Shown here: positions 36,066-62,240 of the stretch, in pieces
Layout of the letters: each line of letters begins with the position of its first letter
Position numbering within the stretch: the stretch's first letter is position 1
From: Thermosipho sp. (in: thermotogales)
GTDB taxonomy: Bacteria > Thermotogota > Thermotogae > Thermotogales > Fervidobacteriaceae
Length of the DNA stretch: 64,000 nt
Direction of reading: 5' to 3'
Assembly: GCA_017656345.1 (NCBI GenBank)
Contig: JACDNZ010000002.1
Location: 62,001-126,000, forward strand
Notes under the pieces: model-generated
Told to the model about the DNA's origin: nothing
Seen by the model: only the letters and a program-made list of their open reading frames with translations
The model's database searches: none
Translations under genes and position numbers: made by a program

Positions 36066-36980
36066 TTACAGTCCTATTATCACAAAAATTAAGATTGATA
36101 AAAGTGAAATCAAAACTATCTGTTTTATGTACATATACTTATTTCTATCAACCGTAACTGTTATTGTCCTTACAACTTTTTCTCTACCATTATCTGCTAT
36201 AACCTTTACCAAATAAACTCCATTATCTGCATTTTCACCTTTCCAAGTAAAATTATTATAATAAGGTTTCCCTTCAAAAACCTTTTCATATATAACTTCG
36301 CCAGTTTTTTGTTTAGAGATTTCAATTTTCAAATTGGCATAAGTGGACAAATAAATTCTTAATTTCCACGAATCTCTAAACCAATCATTATTAGGTGAAA
36401 ACTCTGTATAAGAAGTTTCTATATTCATTTCCAATTTTTTAGGCTTAAATTTAAGTTTCATTATCTTTATTTCTTTGAAACTTATAAATATTTTTTCTTC
36501 AATATACTCATAACCCGGCGAAGAAAATACTACCTGATTACTTCCTGTTGGTATTTTTATTACTTCATTTTCATCATTTACACTTCCAAAATACGTACCA
36601 TTTATATAAATACTAACAGGATATACATTTGAAAGGATCATAAGTTTTCCAGCTTTTTCTAAACTAATATACACTCTTAAACCTGATTCATCGATATAAA
36701 ATGTTTTCGTAAAAGGTAAAAAGTCTTCAGCTTCAATCTTTATATTATGATATCCTTCCTCTTCAAAAGCTAGAATAATATATCCAAAAATATTGGTTTG
36801 TCCCGCATAATAACCATCGACATAAACATCAGCATAGGGTATTCCTGTTTCGATCCATAGACCATAATCTGGTAAGCTTGGAGGATAATTCCAGAAAACT
36901 GAAAAAAATAAATTAATGTTGGTTGTTGAAAATAACAAAACCGAAAAAACTATAAAAGTTAAAACTAACAATTTTTTCAT
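36066..36980 (-). CDS. Exported PEGA-domain protein with C-terminal membrane helix
   Basis: A 304-aa protein from ATG 36980. The signal peptide is KKLLVLTFIVFSVLLF. Two PEGA-type beta domains follow (VYVDGYYAGQTN and IYINGTYFGSV, each with the later TP/EG turn), then an FlgD- or Big-like beta sandwich (NDWFRDSWKLRIYLS to GVYLVKVIADNG), and a final helix (IVLISLLSILIFVIIGL). It probably sits in the envelope and binds protein or glycan; function unknown. A longer frame to 37058 runs into purH and lacks a binding site; AAGGTGACTAAT fits 36980. Confidence 0.75.
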   Translation of the reverse strand: MKKLLVLTFIVFSVLLFSTTNINLFFSVFWNYPPSLPDYGLWIETGIPYADVYVDGYYAGQTNIFGYIILAFEEEGYHNIKIEAEDFLPFTKTFYIDESGLRVYISLEKAGKLMILSNVYPVSIYINGTYFGSVNDENEVIKIPTGSNQVVFSSPGYEYIEEKIFISFKEIKIMKLKFKPKKLEMNIETSYTEFSPNNDWFRDSWKLRIYLSTYANLKIEISKQKTGEVIYEKVFEGKPYYNNFTWKGENADNGVYLVKVIADNGREKVVRTITVTVDRNKYMYIKQIVLISLLSILIFVIIGL

Positions 36981-36996
36981 ATTAGTCACCTTCCAA

Positions 36997-37605
36997 CTAC
37001 TCCTCAAAATCCATAGAAGCAAATAACTCAGACAAAACGCTGTGAATTTCTGCATCATATTTCATAGTCCTGTAAAAAGCTTTAAGAGCAAAAATCCTTC
37101 TCATATGAAGAGTAACATCTCCGCAGTCATCCAAACTTTTTATTACTTTTTCATAATCATCAGGATCAGAAACTACAATCACATCCCTATAATTTTTCGC
37201 AGCTGCTCTAAGCAAAGCCACACCACCAATGTCAATATAATCAATTAACTTCTGCTCGTTTCTGGACTTTTTTGCAACTTCATCAAAAGGAGATAAATTG
37301 ACAACAACCATATCAATGAATTTAATATCGTTATCTTTCAAATCTCTCATATGTTTTTTATTTCCAAACTTTGCCAAAATTGCCCCAAAAACCTTTGGAT
37401 GTAAAGTTTTTACTCTTCCATCCAAAATCTCTGGAAAGCCAGTTAGCTCAGATACCCTTATAACATCAATTCCATTCTTTTCCAAATAACTGGCTGTTCC
37501 TCCAGTACTAATAATTTCTACTCCTCTTTCTTGGAGCTTGGTAGCAAACTCAAGTATTCCTTTTTTGTCTGAAACACTTATTAATGCCCTTTTTACATTC
37601 ATCAT
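36997..37605 (-). CDS. purH: IMP cyclohydrolase domain of PurH only
   Basis: A 202-aa protein matching just the N-terminal MGS-like IMP cyclohydrolase half of bifunctional PurH. The motifs are KRALISVSDKKGI, ISTGGTASYL, GFPEILDGRVKTLHPKVFG, VVNLSPF and IDIGGVALLRAAAKN. It stops at a TAG at the domain border, where usual PurH continues with about 250-300 residues of AICAR transformylase. No transformylase sequence follows in any frame here; the next gene is the PEGA protein. A stand-alone cyclohydrolase or a decayed remnant are both possible, but the kept motifs favour function. Two ATG codons (37605, 37602) follow GGGGG. Confidence 0.85.
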   Translation of the reverse strand: MMNVKRALISVSDKKGILEFATKLQERGVEIISTGGTASYLEKNGIDVIRVSELTGFPEILDGRVKTLHPKVFGAILAKFGNKKHMRDLKDNDIKFIDMVVVNLSPFDEVAKKSRNEQKLIDYIDIGGVALLRAAAKNYRDVIVVSDPDDYEKVIKSLDDCGDVTLHMRRIFALKAFYRTMKYDAEIHSVLSELFASMDFEE

Positions 37606-40299: not shown

Positions 40300-43200
40300 T
40301 TAAAACAGACCAATTTCTGGACGATTCTCTTTAAAATTCCACCCAAAAAACTTTTCACTAAATTCAATCACATAAAAAACTATAGCCAACTTTTTCACGT
40401 CGTTCATATCAAATACTCCATCACCGTTAAAATAAAATTCGCTTGAAAGATTTACCATCCAGTGATGTAGTTGTTTTGAAATAGACAATGAAAGTTGCTT
40501 AAACATTTTTTCTTCAAAATTATAACTTATCAAAAAAGAACACGTTGGATCGAAAGAATTCAAATCTGTTTTAAAACTAATTTCCTTACTCCTACTAGTG
40601 TAAGAAAAAGAAAATTTATTTTTATTTTTTTCAACACTATAAGTTACATTAATTACTGGGTCTTCTGTTTTAGAACTTTTATAAAAAGATAAGCTCAAAT
40701 AATTTTCATACTCACCTATACTAAAGGGTCCTTTAAAATAAGCCTTTTTTATGTAACCCTCTTCAATTGATTGTAAAATATCTCCTTTCAATTTTTGATA
40801 ACTTAATATATGATTAATCTCTTTTATTGGTATATCTTCTCCATGGTATAAAGAAAATTTGGCATTATATTTGAACTTAAATTTAGTACTAGTAAGTAAA
40901 AAATTAATGTTACTTGGTAATAATTCATTGTTTATATTATCGTATTCTGTACTCAATGTTAAATTCGAATCAAGTTCGTTGAATGAATAATTAATATTTA
41001 ATTTTATTACATCATTGATAGGTTGATTAACTAATAAATCCCAACCTTTCGTTATACTTATGGTTGAAATACCACTATCAATTTTAAAAGTATAACTAAA
41101 TTTTGATAAGTTGTTCTCAGTCGATTCTGAACCAAAATTATTTTTAAATTCATATTTTCCTTCGATTGACAATGGCTCAAAAGTATATTTGGCAGAAACT
41201 GTATATTTATCGTACATTCCCGCTTCAAAGTAATATTGATCAGTCAGAGCATTATACAAATTAGCTACAAACTCATAATTTGCGTTTAATTTAAATGAAT
41301 TATAGCTATAATTAAATGGCAAGTTAAATCTATGACTTATTTTGCTAATATAACCATTGTCTGAATAAGTTACATCAAATAAAGTATTGAAGTATCTTTC
41401 ATTATAAAGACTAAACTGATACTTTATTTCCTCATTAGCTGTCCAAGTTGAACTTTCAAGAAAAAAACCTTCTTTAGAAAATTTTATTTTTGCATTTAGA
41501 GTGTTAATTCTAAATTTTAAGTAATCATTTAAACTCTCAACGATACCTCTCAAAGAAAATGAATTGTATATTACTGACTTATTGCCATCATAATCAAAAT
41601 ATAAGTTTATGTCACTTCTGACTGGTTTTTTCCCAAAAACATATGAAAACCCCAGTCTTCGGTTCCATGAAATCTCCGAACTATAATTCTCTTCAAAATA
41701 AAAAGGAGCGTATCTTACTTTTAAATAAACATCTTTATTGTTCCAGTTCGTTTTATAGGTAAAATGTTCAGTCTTTAATTCAAAAGTACTTTTTTCAAAA
41801 TCCAAAGAGAGTTTGTCATTTGTTTTAATATTGTTTAAAGTAAACTTATAATCACTACCTCTATAATCAGTATTAATCGTAGTATCCAAAACAAAATCAC
41901 CAATATAAGTTACATAATTTTGATTTGAAGAAAATCCACTGATTGGATTCCAAGAAAATGAAAAAGAAAAAGGTGGTTTTTCATTTTCAGAAATACTTGT
42001 AAAATACACTGGATATGGGAAAAAAGGTATGTCTAGAATAAATAGAAGAGAGTTTTCGGCTACAATATATTTTCCTTCGTATACATATACATTTAAAGAT
42101 TCTATTCTATAATGAGGATGTTCCAATTCACAGGTAGTAATATATGCTTCTTTTAATAATGAACTTGCTGAATAAGTTTCAACCTCACTCGCACCAAAAT
42201 ATAAATTTATTTCTCTATTATTCTCCTTATATTCAAAATTTCCTCTTACCTTTAAAACATATGCCTCATTTTCATCAAAAAAATACTTTAAATATTTTGC
42301 ATAATATTTGTTATTCTTATATTCATATACTACATTCCCAGCTGCTTCTAAAACCTTTGCCTTTGAATTATCTAATGTAATTGTTGCATAATCTGAAAGT
42401 AAAGAATTTTCCTTCCAGTTTATGTAAACATTTCCACTAGCAAAAACAGTATCACCAAAAAAATTTATTTGTGATGCATCCAGGGTTATTTCCTCTGCAA
42501 ATAGATTACTTCCACCAAAAATCACCAAAAAAAGCACAACAACAAAAAACTTCGATAAAAATTCTCTTATCCTATAAGCAATAGGTGTATCTAAAAGTAC
42601 AAACAAAAATAAACCAATCACACCAAAAATCATATCTGGCATCCAAGCTGCAATATAAGGATTAAGCAAGTTTTCTTTACCCATGGCTGCCAGCCAAGCA
42701 CCAGAACCCTGATACAGAACAACTATTCCAAATGTTAATATCACACTCCAGGATTTACTTTTCAACCCAAACAAAAGTGAGAGTGGAACACCTAATAAAG
42801 CAATAATAAAAGGACCTATTGAATTTGCATATCTTGCATGTAACTCAACAATCCATGGAGAGGGATCAATTCCAAGTTTTAGGAAAGTGTTTATTTTTTC
42901 TTTCAATTCTCTACCAGTCATATCTCTTGGGGATTTCCCAAACCGCATTAAATCTTCAAGATCATCTTTTATATTCAACTTTATCTTTGAAAAATTCATA
43001 TCTAATTTTAAAAATCCCGAATTATCAGTTACATACATCTTTCCATTCAATAAAAACCACGAATTATCTTCTTTTATAACTCTTTCTGCTGTAACAATTC
43101 TTTCCTCATTACTAACATTTTGAAAAAGAACTACATCGTACAATATTCCTTTTTCTTGATCATATTTCTTTACAAAAAAATATTGCTTATCATCTATTTT

Positions 43201-43653
43201 AGTTAAAACATTCTCTCTAATATTTAATTCCGGTGTTCTGTAAACATATTTGGAAACTACTTCTACAGCCTTTTGGTTATAATTTGGTACAACTTTATCA
43301 TTTAAATAAAAAGCAAAAAGACCGAACAATATAGATAACAAAAAAAATGGTAGAACTAATCTTTTTGAAGGAATACCATGAACTAAAAGTGCTGTAATTT
43401 CTTTTGAATTATAAAGTTGAGATAAAACCCAGAAAATAGCGAATAATATCCCTACTGGAATCCCCAATGAAATGAAATAAGGAATGTTAAAATAAATTAA
43501 CTCGAACAACTTTAATATACCGACTCTATGCCTAACAATTATGTCGGAAAGTTGATACAAAAGCTCAACACTGGCAAAAATAACAAATCCCAATATTCCC
43601 ATTAAAAATGGTCCAATTGAAAGCTTTAAAATATATTTTGTTAAAACTTTCAA
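40300..43653 (-). CDS. LptF/G permease fused to LptA-like and LptD-like domains
   Basis: One unbroken frame of 1117 aa. Residues 1-360 are an LptF/LptG (YjgP/YjgQ) permease: helices at the N-terminus, a periplasmic beta domain at about 125-250, and three helices at about 275-355. Residues 368-386 form a second signal-like segment ending LFA before EEI, with a plausible signal peptidase site. About 389-500 resembles the OstA/LptA beta-jellyroll (GDTVFASGNV, KAKVLEAAGNVVYEY). At 500-560 come LptD hallmarks: AYITTCELEHPHYRIES and DIPFFPYPVYF. The remaining 550 residues alternate like a beta barrel. So one gene could encode the inner-membrane permease, periplasmic bridge and outer-membrane translocon, or a polyprotein cut at 386. 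It overlaps phoU by 4 bases. Substrate unknown. Confidence 0.85.
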   Translation of the reverse strand: MKVLTKYILKLSIGPFLMGILGFVIFASVELLYQLSDIIVRHRVGILKLFELIYFNIPYFISLGIPVGILFAIFWVLSQLYNSKEITALLVHGIPSKRLVLPFFLLSILFGLFAFYLNDKVVPNYNQKAVEVVSKYVYRTPELNIRENVLTKIDDKQYFFVKKYDQEKGILYDVVLFQNVSNEERIVTAERVIKEDNSWFLLNGKMYVTDNSGFLKLDMNFSKIKLNIKDDLEDLMRFGKSPRDMTGRELKEKINTFLKLGIDPSPWIVELHARYANSIGPFIIALLGVPLSLLFGLKSKSWSVILTFGIVVLYQGSGAWLAAMGKENLLNPYIAAWMPDMIFGVIGLFLFVLLDTPIAYRIREFLSKFFVVVLFLVIFGGSNLFAEEITLDASQINFFGDTVFASGNVYINWKENSLLSDYATITLDNSKAKVLEAAGNVVYEYKNNKYYAKYLKYFFDENEAYVLKVRGNFEYKENNREINLYFGASEVETYSASSLLKEAYITTCELEHPHYRIESLNVYVYEGKYIVAENSLLFILDIPFFPYPVYFTSISENEKPPFSFSFSWNPISGFSSNQNYVTYIGDFVLDTTINTDYRGSDYKFTLNNIKTNDKLSLDFEKSTFELKTEHFTYKTNWNNKDVYLKVRYAPFYFEENYSSEISWNRRLGFSYVFGKKPVRSDINLYFDYDGNKSVIYNSFSLRGIVESLNDYLKFRINTLNAKIKFSKEGFFLESSTWTANEEIKYQFSLYNERYFNTLFDVTYSDNGYISKISHRFNLPFNYSYNSFKLNANYEFVANLYNALTDQYYFEAGMYDKYTVSAKYTFEPLSIEGKYEFKNNFGSESTENNLSKFSYTFKIDSGISTISITKGWDLLVNQPINDVIKLNINYSFNELDSNLTLSTEYDNINNELLPSNINFLLTSTKFKFKYNAKFSLYHGEDIPIKEINHILSYQKLKGDILQSIEEGYIKKAYFKGPFSIGEYENYLSLSFYKSSKTEDPVINVTYSVEKNKNKFSFSYTSRSKEISFKTDLNSFDPTCSFLISYNFEEKMFKQLSLSISKQLHHWMVNLSSEFYFNGDGVFDMNDVKKLAIVFYVIEFSEKFFGWNFKENRPEIGLF

Positions 43654-44354
43654 GTATTCTCCCCCTTGTTATTTTCCAAAGAGTTAATAGTATACAACTT
43701 ATCCTCAAAACATCTATATTGTTTACCGGTAATTATATATGAAGTTGTTTCTACAATTTTGGTCGCCTGATCCGCTATTTCTTCAATGTTTTGAGCAATT
43801 TCCAAAAGTAATAATGCTCTTTTTACATACTTCGAATCTTCCATCATATAAACCATTAATTCATTTCTTACTTCTTCAAGATAATTATCAATTTCATTAT
43901 CTTTTTCACAAACAGTTTCCGCTCCATTAACATTTTGGTCTGCAAACATCCTCATACTTTCACGAAGCATAATTAGTGCTAATCTTGCCATTTCCGGGAT
44001 TGTAACCAGAGGTTTTAGTTGTGGCTGTCTGATTAATTCCAGGGTTTTTCTGGCAATTTCTAAAGATTTTTCAGAGATATTTTCAAAATAACTTGAAATC
44101 ACAAAACTTCCTGTCACTATTCTTAAATCAACTGACATTGGCATCATTGTTGCAAGAATTATCAACGCTTTTTCTTTAATTTTCATATCCATAACATTAA
44201 TTTCATTTTTTCTACCCAAAACCTGTTTAATGGATGATTCTTCTCTTTCTTTTAAAGCGTTTATTGCATGATTGAATAAAGTTTCTGCAAGCCAGCCTTC
44301 TTTTAATAACATCTTTTTAAGCTCTTCTATACTTTCTTTTAAAATCCACTCCAT
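43650..44354 (-). CDS. PhoU-domain protein
   Basis: A 234-aa all-helical protein with two PhoU repeats. The repeats hold the family pattern (DMKIKEKALIILATMMPMSVDLRIVTGSFVIS in the first and DNEIDNYLEEVRNELMVYMM followed by KRALLLLEIAQNIEEIADQATKI in the second). PhoU proteins usually tune Pst phosphate transport and PhoR signalling, but no pst or pho genes lie nearby. It stands between nadK and the lpt fusion, overlapping the latter by 4 bases. Confidence 0.85.
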   Translation of the reverse strand: MEWILKESIEELKKMLLKEGWLAETLFNHAINALKEREESSIKQVLGRKNEINVMDMKIKEKALIILATMMPMSVDLRIVTGSFVISSYFENISEKSLEIARKTLELIRQPQLKPLVTIPEMARLALIMLRESMRMFADQNVNGAETVCEKDNEIDNYLEEVRNELMVYMMEDSKYVKRALLLLEIAQNIEEIADQATKIVETTSYIITGKQYRCFEDKLYTINSLENNKGENT

Positions 44355-44365
44355 TTATCATCACC

Positions 44366-45136
44366 TTACTTAAAGTAATTTTTTCCATATCCCATCTTCT
44401 CTTTTATAGACTTTGAAAAGTCATAATTTTGCGGTCTTAAAATAGTAACAGATTTTGACGACTTTCTTACAGAAAAACTATCAAATAATCCCAAGTCTCT
44501 ACCATCTACAACCAAATGAACCGGGAAATTTGTAGTTATATTTATATCTTCATGATCAGGGACAATAACACTTCTTGAAGCCAGGAACTGTGGTGCAATT
44601 GGAGTTAAAACAATAGCATTTACATTGGGTAAGAGAATTGGTCCACCAAGAGACAAAGAATACGCAGTTGAACCTGTAGGAGTGCTAATTATAATTCCAT
44701 CTGCATGGAAATAAAATGATCCATCACCAAATCGAACATTTATATCAATCATTTTTTGTGAAGGTTCTCTCATCGCAACAACATCATTCAAAAAAAATTC
44801 TCCCAATTCTTTTACCTCTAAAAATTGTCTAACATCCTCTTTAAAATTATTAGCTTTTAGATCCAGCAAAAATTCATCAAATTCATCTATTGTATAGCTA
44901 GATAAAAATCCTAATCTCCCGCCTTTAAATCCAATTATCGGACTTGAAACATATTTTGCGGCTTTTAAAACTGTTCCATCTCCACCCAGAATCAAAGTAC
45001 AATCTGAAGAATCTGAAATTTGCTTTTCTTCAGATGTATAATAACTAATTTCATAATTTTGTTCTTTTAACTTTTCAACAAACTTATTTGCTACCTTTTC
45101 TAAGCCTGGTTTGTAAAACATTCCAAAACGTTTCAT
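44366..45136 (-). CDS. nadK: NAD kinase
   Basis: Makes NADP+ from NAD+ (256 aa, a short thermotogal form). The motifs are LILGGDGTVLKAA, containing GGDGT, DGIIISTPTGSTAYSLSLGGP for substrate and metal binding, and VVDGRDLG near the end. It overlaps the YggT gene by 4 bases and lies 11 bases before phoU. Confidence 0.95.
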   Translation of the reverse strand: MKRFGMFYKPGLEKVANKFVEKLKEQNYEISYYTSEEKQISDSSDCTLILGGDGTVLKAAKYVSSPIIGFKGGRLGFLSSYTIDEFDEFLLDLKANNFKEDVRQFLEVKELGEFFLNDVVAMREPSQKMIDINVRFGDGSFYFHADGIIISTPTGSTAYSLSLGGPILLPNVNAIVLTPIAPQFLASRSVIVPDHEDINITTNFPVHLVVDGRDLGLFDSFSVRKSSKSVTILRPQNYDFSKSIKEKMGYGKNYFK

Positions 45137-59775: not shown

Positions 59776-62240
59776 TAACTGCAATAGTTTCACCTTATTC
59801 GTTCAAAGGTTCAATTTTAAAATTAGAAAATCTTGTTAAATATGCCAATGAAATAAAGGCTAAATCTTTGTTTTTATGTGATAATAATTTTCATGCAACA
59901 ATTAAATTTATTGAGCTTTGCAAAAAAAACAATATAAAACCTATCATAGGATATAAACATAACAACAAAGTATTTTATGCCAAAAACACCTCAGAATTAC
60001 TCGAATTAATTGATGCATACAATACCGATAACTTCGACGATATTAAACTCAATTTTATATCTGCTAACGACGTTTACTTTGCATATTATTTTCCTGGTCA
60101 GAGGAAAATCTACGAAATTTTTGCGGAATATCTTGGCGAACCACCGATTGAAAAAGGTGTTTTAAAAAAAATAATTTGCAACCTTGAAGTTGATGAATAT
60201 AATCTTAGATCGTCTCAAACCCTTCCAAAAGCTCCCGATAATTTTCTCACAATAGAAACCAGTTTTAACGAATTTACCAGATTCCAAAAAGAAGTAAAAT
60301 TAATCAAAGAAAAGAAATTTGAAGATTATTTTTACACAATATATGAAATAGTGCACCTAGCAGAAAAATTGGGCATAAAGGTTGGTCCTGGTAGGGGAAG
60401 TGCTGTAGGATCATTACTTGCTTATAAGCTGGGAATTACAAAAATAAATCCTCTAGAATATAATTTAATGTTTGAAAGATTTTTAAATCCTGGAAGAACA
60501 GACCTACCAGATATTGATTTAGACATAGAAGATATCAAAAGAAAACAACTAATAGACAAGCTTAGAGAAAAGTTCAAATACGTCTATCATATTTCAACAT
60601 TTTCTAATATTGGTACTAAAACTCTCAAAAAAATAGCCTTTGAAAAAAAGATTCCTTTTGAATCATTGAAACCTCTCTACAATCTCCCAACTCATAAAAG
60701 TATACACGCCGCTGGAATAATCATATCAACAAGTGAAATCAAAGCTCCAATTAAGGACAACGTTATAGAATGGGATATGAATTCTTTACAAAGCCTGGGT
60801 TACATAAAATTTGATATTCTGGGTTTAAGAACTTTAACCATATTATCCGAACTTGAAAAAGAATTAGGAAAACCACAATTAAATGATAAAAAATCATTTT
60901 ATTTAATTTCAAAAGGTCAAACTACGGGAATCTTTCAACTAGATAGTTCTATAGGTAGAAAGGTTTCAAGACTTATCAAACCTGAAAACATCAATGAACT
61001 TTCAATAATTCTCTCATTGAATAGGCCCGGACCTTTAAATGCCGGAATTGATAAACAATATGCAAAGGCAAAATGGGAAAATGCTAGATTTTTAGACTTA
61101 GAAATATTGAACGAAACAAAAGGAGTTTTAATTTTTCAAGAGCAAATAATGAAAATTGCTATGGAACTTGCTGACTTTTCTGCAGAAGAAGCTGATATTT
61201 TAAGAAAGTCAGTTGCAAAAAAAGACAAAGAATTAATGGAAAAACTGGTAGATAAACTAAGAACAAATTTATCCAAAAAATTGTCAAAAGACTTAGTGGA
61301 TAACATTATAAGCATTATCATTGAATTTTCTGAATATGCCTTTAATAAATCACACGCTATTGCTTATGCTCACATAACTTATTACCTTTCATTTTTCAAA
61401 ACACATTTTCCAAAACAATTTTTTAAAACCATCTTAAAATTCGATTCTTCAAAAAAAGAGAAAGCAATTTTAGAATTACAGGCTCTAGGATACAACATAT
61501 TGCTTCCAAATGTAAATAACATAGATGAAACAGACAAAGATTTTGTTATACCATTAAATCTAATTAATGGAATAAATGACAAAATTTCTGAACAAATACT
61601 TAAAAATGGGCCCTACAACTCTCTAGATGATTTTATAGAAAAAAACAAAAATATCAATTACTCTGTTATTGAATCACTTATTAAAGCTGGGGCTTTTGAC
61701 GATTTTTCTGAGAGTAGAAGACAACTACTTGTAAAACTGAAAGAAATTAGAACGGGAGTTAATAGTAAACTTATTGAACTTTCCAGTAAATTATTCGGAA
61801 AAAAACTAGAACACAATTTCAAAAAAGAACAGGATTGGGAAAAATGTGATATGGAATTTTCTGTGCTAGGTTTCCCCATTTCCAAACCAGTAAAAGATTT
61901 TAAAAATTTACTTGCACCATTTTCAATAGCAGCCTCAAGAAATCAAAAACTAGCAGTTAATATCGTTACAAAAGGTGGATATGCAACAGATGGTATTTCA
62001 ACATTTAAACTAAATGTACCAGATAATGTTTATACGATAATCTACGACAGAAAATTGGAAATACATCATGGAATTAAAAAAGTTGTTTATGAGCTAGAAA
62101 ATATTTACTCACATAAAGATATAGAAAAAGGGAATGTTAATGAAACAGTAACATTTTCTAAAAAAGGAAAAAGAGTGAAAGTTTTAAAATCAAGACCCGT
62201 TCAAGATGGATATAAAATAACATTAATTGAAGGTGATTGA
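59772..62240 (+). CDS. dnaE: DNA polymerase III alpha subunit, short DnaE with decayed PHP domain
   Basis: C-family polymerase of only 822 aa (usual DnaE about 1000-1160). Catalytic aspartates are D247 and D249 in PDIDLDIED and D348 in KFDILGLRTL; VGPGRGSAVGSLLAYKLGI binds the primer-template end. The N-terminal PHP region is cut to about 110 residues and begins IVSPYSFKGS in place of the usual H-x-H start, so its metal site is lost. The C-terminal OB and tau-binding parts are short. Thermotogales are known to carry both PolC and a short DnaE, so this is probably the accessory polymerase. It overlaps rpe by 4 bases. Confidence 0.9.
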   Translation: MITAIVSPYSFKGSILKLENLVKYANEIKAKSLFLCDNNFHATIKFIELCKKNNIKPIIGYKHNNKVFYAKNTSELLELIDAYNTDNFDDIKLNFISANDVYFAYYFPGQRKIYEIFAEYLGEPPIEKGVLKKIICNLEVDEYNLRSSQTLPKAPDNFLTIETSFNEFTRFQKEVKLIKEKKFEDYFYTIYEIVHLAEKLGIKVGPGRGSAVGSLLAYKLGITKINPLEYNLMFERFLNPGRTDLPDIDLDIEDIKRKQLIDKLREKFKYVYHISTFSNIGTKTLKKIAFEKKIPFESLKPLYNLPTHKSIHAAGIIISTSEIKAPIKDNVIEWDMNSLQSLGYIKFDILGLRTLTILSELEKELGKPQLNDKKSFYLISKGQTTGIFQLDSSIGRKVSRLIKPENINELSIILSLNRPGPLNAGIDKQYAKAKWENARFLDLEILNETKGVLIFQEQIMKIAMELADFSAEEADILRKSVAKKDKELMEKLVDKLRTNLSKKLSKDLVDNIISIIIEFSEYAFNKSHAIAYAHITYYLSFFKTHFPKQFFKTILKFDSSKKEKAILELQALGYNILLPNVNNIDETDKDFVIPLNLINGINDKISEQILKNGPYNSLDDFIEKNKNINYSVIESLIKAGAFDDFSESRRQLLVKLKEIRTGVNSKLIELSSKLFGKKLEHNFKKEQDWEKCDMEFSVLGFPISKPVKDFKNLLAPFSIAASRNQKLAVNIVTKGGYATDGISTFKLNVPDNVYTIIYDRKLEIHHGIKKVVYELENIYSHKDIEKGNVNETVTFSKKGKRVKVLKSRPVQDGYKITLIEGD

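Follow-up and report, generated by a model that had tools for sequence, protein, structure and literature searches.

The 64,000-nucleotide stretch of Thermosipho sp. DNA analysed here (the window; positions 62,001 to 126,000 of contig JACDNZ010000002.1, assembly GCA_017656345.1) carries on its minus strand, at 40300..43653, a single gene in which an LptF/G-type permease is joined to LptD, the outer-membrane translocon of the lipopolysaccharide (LPS) transport (Lpt) system. We regard the fusion of the two genes, taken together with the LptD identity of the second half, as virtually beyond doubt. The gene starts with TTG behind the ribosome-binding sequence GGGGGAG (43659..43665, minus strand) and encodes 1117 residues without an internal stop, at exactly the coordinates given in the original prediction, an earlier reading made from the letters alone. 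That reading had placed a separate OstA/LptA-like domain between permease and LptD; since the LptA-like part belongs to LptD, as set out below, two proteins are joined and not three.

A permease and an LptD in one reading frame

Residues 1-355 (42589..43653; all parts of the gene lie on the minus strand) form the permease. As had been predicted, it is a complete one: residues 6-351 match the Pfam family PF03739 (LptF_LptG) with an E-value of 1.4e-73 and 248 bits against a cut-off of 27.9, covering profile positions 1-351 of 353. Predicted secondary structure places helices at 2-34, 46-82, 96-137, 265-295, 300-326, and 338-353, with periplasmic strands at 149-226 after the third of the six, which is the layout of an LptF/LptG permease, and structural matches to LptF/LptG were also obtained. 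Neither NCBIfam equivalog cut-off was reached (LptF 131 of 230 bits, LptG 127 of 240), and by its sequence the permease is of the LptF/G type, being neither LptF nor LptG in particular. Compared to four relatives, the ratio of nonsynonymous to synonymous substitution rates (dN/dS) was lower in the permease (0.03-0.11) than in the barrel half (0.22-0.38), both rough values as dS was mostly above 1.

The permease is followed by a signal-peptide-like segment (residues 360-386, 42496..42576), to which we return below, and then by three parts that we assign to LptD: an N-terminal beta-taco (residues 387-507, 42133..42495), a conserved linker (residues 506-560, 41974..42138), and an outer-membrane barrel (residues 561-1117, 40303..41973) ending in IGLF. 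Both hallmarks named in the original prediction are present in the linker, IPFFPYPVYF at 542-551 and the TTC motif, which contains C508; the latter had been written with one residue missing and reads TTCELEHPHYRIES at 506-519. Behind the linker, the barrel-like character noted earlier was confirmed, with some 555 residues that have a high content of beta strands.

Recognition of the second half as LptD required a family profile (A2) combined with a structure model. A2 and A3 comprise 34 rows, the window and 33 of the 42 loci L092-L133, leaving out eight loci with frames shorter than 1000 residues and L112 (broken end). With the A2 profile, matches were obtained to solved structures of both LptA and LptD, and the profile match to LptD that the original prediction demanded was found with 7omm, the LptD of N. 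gonorrhoeae (E 4.1e-5). This best LptD match spans the taco, the cysteine linker, and the FYxP stretch, and in it the TC and PLFYTP of 7omm align with the linker. An AlphaFold2 model of residues 387-1117 is all-beta (mean predicted local distance difference test score (pLDDT) 86, predicted template modelling score 0.51). Among the 28 best Foldseek rows for this model, 25 are titled LptD (best E 2.7e-18), and the remaining three (4q35, and 4n4r twice) we take to be LptD as well; template modelling scores of 0.14-0.39 and root-mean-square deviations (rmsd) of 14-24 in these rows go with a barrel closure that is not reliable in the model. With VIA-align, all 13 best entries are LptD (4q35 again taken to be so; Z 15.8-21.3, rmsd 12-19), and the next row is a pilus usher (Z 14.2). 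The layout of an LptD, an N-terminal taco and a large barrel connected by the LptD linker, is present in the second half. NCBIfam LptD models, moreover, match 7/38 and 5/38 family members (see below) at an E-value of 0.01.

A separate LptA domain inside the chain was considered and rejected, because the structural and profile matches assign the taco to LptD. Residues 1-123 of the model superpose on LptA/LptH (Z 13, rmsd 2.3-2.5) and on LptC (Z 11.3, rmsd 2.1-2.2), and this domain is LptD's own beta-taco, while an LptA-like protein is encoded elsewhere in the genome.

Further support was sought in an alignment of 38 family members, the window and 37 of 40 loci, mostly one per genus. The three dropped loci, L047 (broken frame), L051 (from the unfused genome G005), and L071 (contig end), hold no frame of at least 1000 residues, so that counts out of 38 or 37 cover fused, long frames only. 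C508 is invariant (38/38), and a second cysteine occurs near the C-terminus in 31 of the 38. LptD of E. coli has a disulfide between taco and barrel, C173-C725, and the two cysteines of the family look like this inter-domain pair. Most of the proteins end in F (26) and the others in M (11) or L (one), which is the pattern expected of substrates of the barrel assembly machinery (BAM).

Several observations weigh against the identification as LptD. Searched as a single sequence, the second half gave only a weak match to Pfam LptD_N (E 0.033, 14.9 bits, under the cut-off of 20.4), no NCBIfam LptD model matched the window protein, and at an E-value of 0.01 LptD_N was found in only 10/38 family members. 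The separately encoded LptDs of genomes G005 and G054, described below, were likewise matched by no NCBIfam model. LptD entries consisting of the barrel only scored no better in VIA-align than unrelated barrels (Z about 12), showing that the strong matches lean on taco and barrel together. Lastly, the position of the second cysteine is H1064 in the window protein, with histidine also in its two congeners, L032 and L033, and in L037, and lysine in three other family members. The failure of the window protein to reach the Pfam and NCBIfam LptD cut-offs is a limit of sensitivity and not a structural feature.

The fusion is kept across Thermotogota

The original prediction had called for a search of all Thermotogota for the same fusion. 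In 103 genomes, the permease was found in 100 and the LptD part, by the A2 profile, in 101; some rows of A2 and A3 derive from genomes that were afterwards searched. Of the genomes in which the question can be decided, 97/99 hold permease and LptD in a single open frame, as do 35/37 decidable genera. This count was made by hand and includes frames ended by a contig edge after the join as well as at least five genes broken or stopped elsewhere (G027, G041, G044, G079, and G093); undecidable were G001, G004, G032, and G055, owing to contig ends or the lack of a match. A stop or frameshift near residue 365 separating two genes, which would have undone the prediction, is thereby excluded. That two genes were joined by an error of assembly or sequencing has a negligible probability; nothing was found in its favour, and the same join recurs across the 97 genomes and also in separately named records. 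Named relatives with the fusion include Thermosipho, which are the nearest to the window gene, Fervidobacterium, Pseudothermotoga, Athalassotoga, Mesoaciditoga, Kosmotogaceae, Mesotoga, and Marinitoga. The fusions of family f9 (L057-L061, apparently Kosmotogaceae/Mesotoga) are 1434-1474 residues long, some 350 residues longer than that of the window, with the extra length apparently within the LptD half.

The permease tree, which is unrooted (the intended root, L134, was unusable with a branch length of 10), groups mostly by family label, with good support for 22 of its 40 inner branches, and is consistent with vertical inheritance of a fusion that is old in the phylum. Only two decidable genomes, G005 and G054, are unfused. 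The permeases of G005 form two long branches that meet in the tree, a position compatible with both an ancestral and a later-split state. A wider scan of contigs from many phyla, using two permease patterns only, returned 43 loci, among them L134 from another phylum, the Armatimonadetes, with its permease in a 428-residue frame; fusions in phyla other than Thermotogota are possible.

The join between the two halves

The original prediction left two options for the product, one chain spanning both membranes or a polyprotein cut after residue 386. The evidence favours the cut without proving it, and we consider it probable that the precursor is divided into two proteins, presumably by signal peptidase I between residues 386 and 387 (42496/42495). 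As predicted, a signal-like segment precedes EEI, at about residues 360-386, with a charged start, a hydrophobic stretch, and the ending NLFA. Throughout the 38 aligned proteins, the last permease helix is followed by the same succession of a charged part, a hydrophobic part, and a short stretch of S/T/G/N, usually closed by F plus a small residue. The presumed -1 position (column 386) holds A, G or S in 34/38, compared to 0/38 in column 385 and 23/38 in column 387. Residues 372-386 are predicted with a pLDDT below 50. Most of 18 LptA-like proteins carry N-terminal signal peptides in the style of the join (FAFS|K, ISFS|K, YAFP|K), and the rarer variant FP|K occurs both in an LptA (L087) and in a fusion (L040).

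The two unfused genomes bear on the same question. G005 has two tandem LptF/G genes (L075:11410-13743) with no LptD behind them, and its LptD of 849 residues lies on another contig (L135:6753-9302; A2 profile E 3.7e-130) and begins with a hydrophobic stretch ending MAFT before QDEN. The same genome also encodes a 603-residue LptA-like protein with repeated OstA-type stretches (L074:8294-10105). In G054 the permease frame ends at a stop codon, and the LptD frame that overlaps it begins MHLRYKSFSPVLFIISLFFIILSGTKVFS, with its ATG a few bases past that stop; this split is known from one metagenome-assembled genome, where a single indel could account for it, and the LptD frame has an extra charged start unseen in relatives. 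Together with the style of the join, the separate LptDs of G005 and G054 point to a cleavable signal peptide.

Against the cut stand, first, the numerical tests. By the length of its hydrophobic core, the join could not be told apart from the permease helices. A cleavage-site weight matrix was built from 16 LptA signal peptides with the cut placed by eye (L085 and L079 were left out of the 18 LptA rows, their site not being obvious); it ranked the join first in 17/38 proteins and among the top five in 33/38, whereas with a shuffled cleavage region the join still came first in 14.3 proteins on average and in 20 at most. As this control largely accounts for the real ranking, the matrix lends the exact site no support, and with the cleavage-region positions alone the join was first in 3/38. 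Furthermore, the presumed -1 is occupied by P in two of the 38 proteins, by T in one, and by R in another.

These weak tests would fit an uncut chain, in which residues 360-386 would form a seventh helix with LptC-like topology and one polypeptide would be anchored in both membranes. A helix is indeed predicted at 357-378, the fusion is kept throughout the phylum, and such a chain would supply the LptC-like anchor in a phylum where no dedicated LptC was found by the LptC model, which matches in only 19/103 genomes, several of the matches coinciding with LptA-like frames. Nevertheless, we judge an uncut chain unlikely, given the small residue at the presumed -1 in 34/38, the signal peptide at the start of LptD in the two unfused relatives, and the existence of a separate LptA-like protein as a bridge; moreover, the one taco and the permease's own would together not reach across a periplasm of ordinary width, unless the two membranes lie near each other. 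Partial or regulated cutting, with some whole molecules seeding the bridge and others being cut, would suit the imperfect cleavage-site signal and let whole molecules replace the missing LptC. Nothing speaks directly against it apart from the unfused relatives, in which whole molecules are dispensable; we rate it slightly lower still than the uncut chain. We give very little credence to two proteins arising by an internal translation start or by frameshifting instead of proteolysis: 35/38 proteins do have an in-frame ATG, GTG or TTG somewhere from alignment position 340 to 372, but no codon position is common to all 38, and purine-rich sequence precedes such a codon in 5/38 (chance level not computed) and in none of those in the window.

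Partner genes and cargo

Searching the genomes for partner genes, as the original prediction had advised, turned up LptB, whereas LpxC was absent and no dedicated LptC was seen. LptB exceeded its cut-off in 98/103 genomes, the window genome having its own at L073:7882-8583 (288 bits, cut-off 240). An OmpH/Skp-like gene lies directly before lptB (L073:7394-8583). PF03968 matched in 92/103 genomes, many of the matches listed lying in separate frames of about 160-350 residues. The LptA-like protein of this genome (L072:9884-10507, 207 residues, N-terminal signal peptide by eye) reached 40 bits with PF03968 (cut-off 20.4) and 28 of 71.7 bits with the LptA equivalog. Matches to the LptC model (E 4e-5) and to the LptA model (E 1e-6) fall in its first and second half, respectively, both under the equivalog cut-offs, and the protein may do the jobs of both LptA and LptC. 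Matches to the LptC model exceeded the cut-off in 17 of the 19 genomes, and those that coincide with LptA-like frames include G059, G061, G062, and G064. Finally, BamA-type POTRA domains were found in 96/103 genomes.

LpxC was found in 0/103 genomes by a search that was positive in four control genomes, E. coli among them, hence the cargo would not be LPS made by the usual lipid A route, in line with the non-LPS cargo proposed earlier. The cargo would be a non-LPS amphiphile, most likely a glycolipid. T. maritima is reported to contain glycolipids that are believed to be diglucosyl lipids (PMC8788747), and a glycolipid cargo has been proposed for such LPS-less Lpt systems (PMC10353723).

A probable precursor for pump and gate

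The best explanation of these data, and in our opinion a likely one, is a precursor that signal peptidase cuts into an LptF/G permease and an LptD, bridged by LptA. Insertion of the six helices of an LptF/G permease leaves the end of the chain in the cytoplasm. From there, the internal signal peptide would send the second half through Sec, and signal peptidase I would cut the precursor after residue 386. The N-terminal product would be the six-helix permease, which is encoded by a single-copy gene in this genome and so should pair with itself; we infer that the homodimer, together with two LptB, would act as the pump. The C-terminal product, LptD, would be inserted into the outer membrane by BAM, and the separately encoded LptA-like protein would link the tacos of permease and LptD. 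Each precursor would yield one permease and one LptD, so that two LptD would accompany each homodimeric pump.

Neighbouring genes

Directly upstream, and overlapping the fusion gene by 4 nt, lies a PhoU-domain gene (43650..44354, minus strand; PF01895, E 7.3e-29), the product of which has as its closest solved structure 1sum, titled 'PhoU homolog 2'. A PhoU gene is directly upstream of the fusion in 31/37 relatives, with the exact 4-nt overlap in 11 and a spacing of -17 to +3 nt in 21. No second PhoU was found in the genome of the window (96.6% complete, 88 contigs), in which a PstC search gave weak matches only, under the cut-off. Judged from sequence and gene order, the PhoU protein may serve the Lpt pump; a bolder and rather unlikely possibility is that it gates this pump in the manner proposed for PhoU and the phosphate ABC (ATP-binding cassette) transporter. 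Upstream of the PhoU gene follows a gene at 44366..45136 (minus strand), putatively NAD kinase-like from its sequence, with a homologue at most 2.5 kb upstream in 30/37 relatives. Elsewhere in the window, a PEGA-domain protein is encoded at 36066-37058 (minus strand); its listed start is perhaps too early, since a signal-peptide-like MKKLLVLTFIVFSVLLFS occurs 26 residues into it.

Comparison with known systems

Thermotogota usually count as diderms that have no export line of the LPS type, and a 2022 survey of 16 outer-membrane genes reports nearly all but bamA as missing from them (PMC8871954). T. maritima is stated to have Lpt orthologues in PMC10353723, citing Putker 2015. No description of the fusion was found in the literature searched, which did not include the review Putker 2015, where it may be noted. 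Our data indicate that almost the whole phylum carries an Lpt system from pump to gate, with lptB and an lptA-like gene; its lptD, coming after a permease domain, may be overlooked in gene surveys. In a lineage this deep, lipid export by such a system without LPS makes the question of the cargo testable, and the fusion offers a natural 1:1 precursor, or else a two-membrane chain, for studying how the bridge is assembled.

Of the Lpt system of LPS bacteria (LptB2FG-C-A-DE), Thermotogota have a recognisable permease, ATPase, taco bridge, and LptD translocon, whereas a single permease gene stands in place of lptF and lptG, LptF/G and LptD are one gene, lpxC is lacking, and no dedicated LptC was seen in the genomes searched. 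The cytochrome b/c1 precursor fbcH of Bradyrhizobium is similar in joining a polytopic membrane protein through an internal signal peptide to an exported protein, but the proteins are unrelated and do not reach across two membranes. Borrelia likewise has an Lpt system without LPS, for which a glycolipid cargo is proposed, yet with separate genes including lptF, lptG, lptC, and lptD (PMC10353723). The Lpt cluster of Negativicutes and Halanaerobiales shares the single LptF/G homologue, but two OstA proteins and no clear LptD are reported for it (PMC5007114), while in Thermotogota LptD is fused to the permease.

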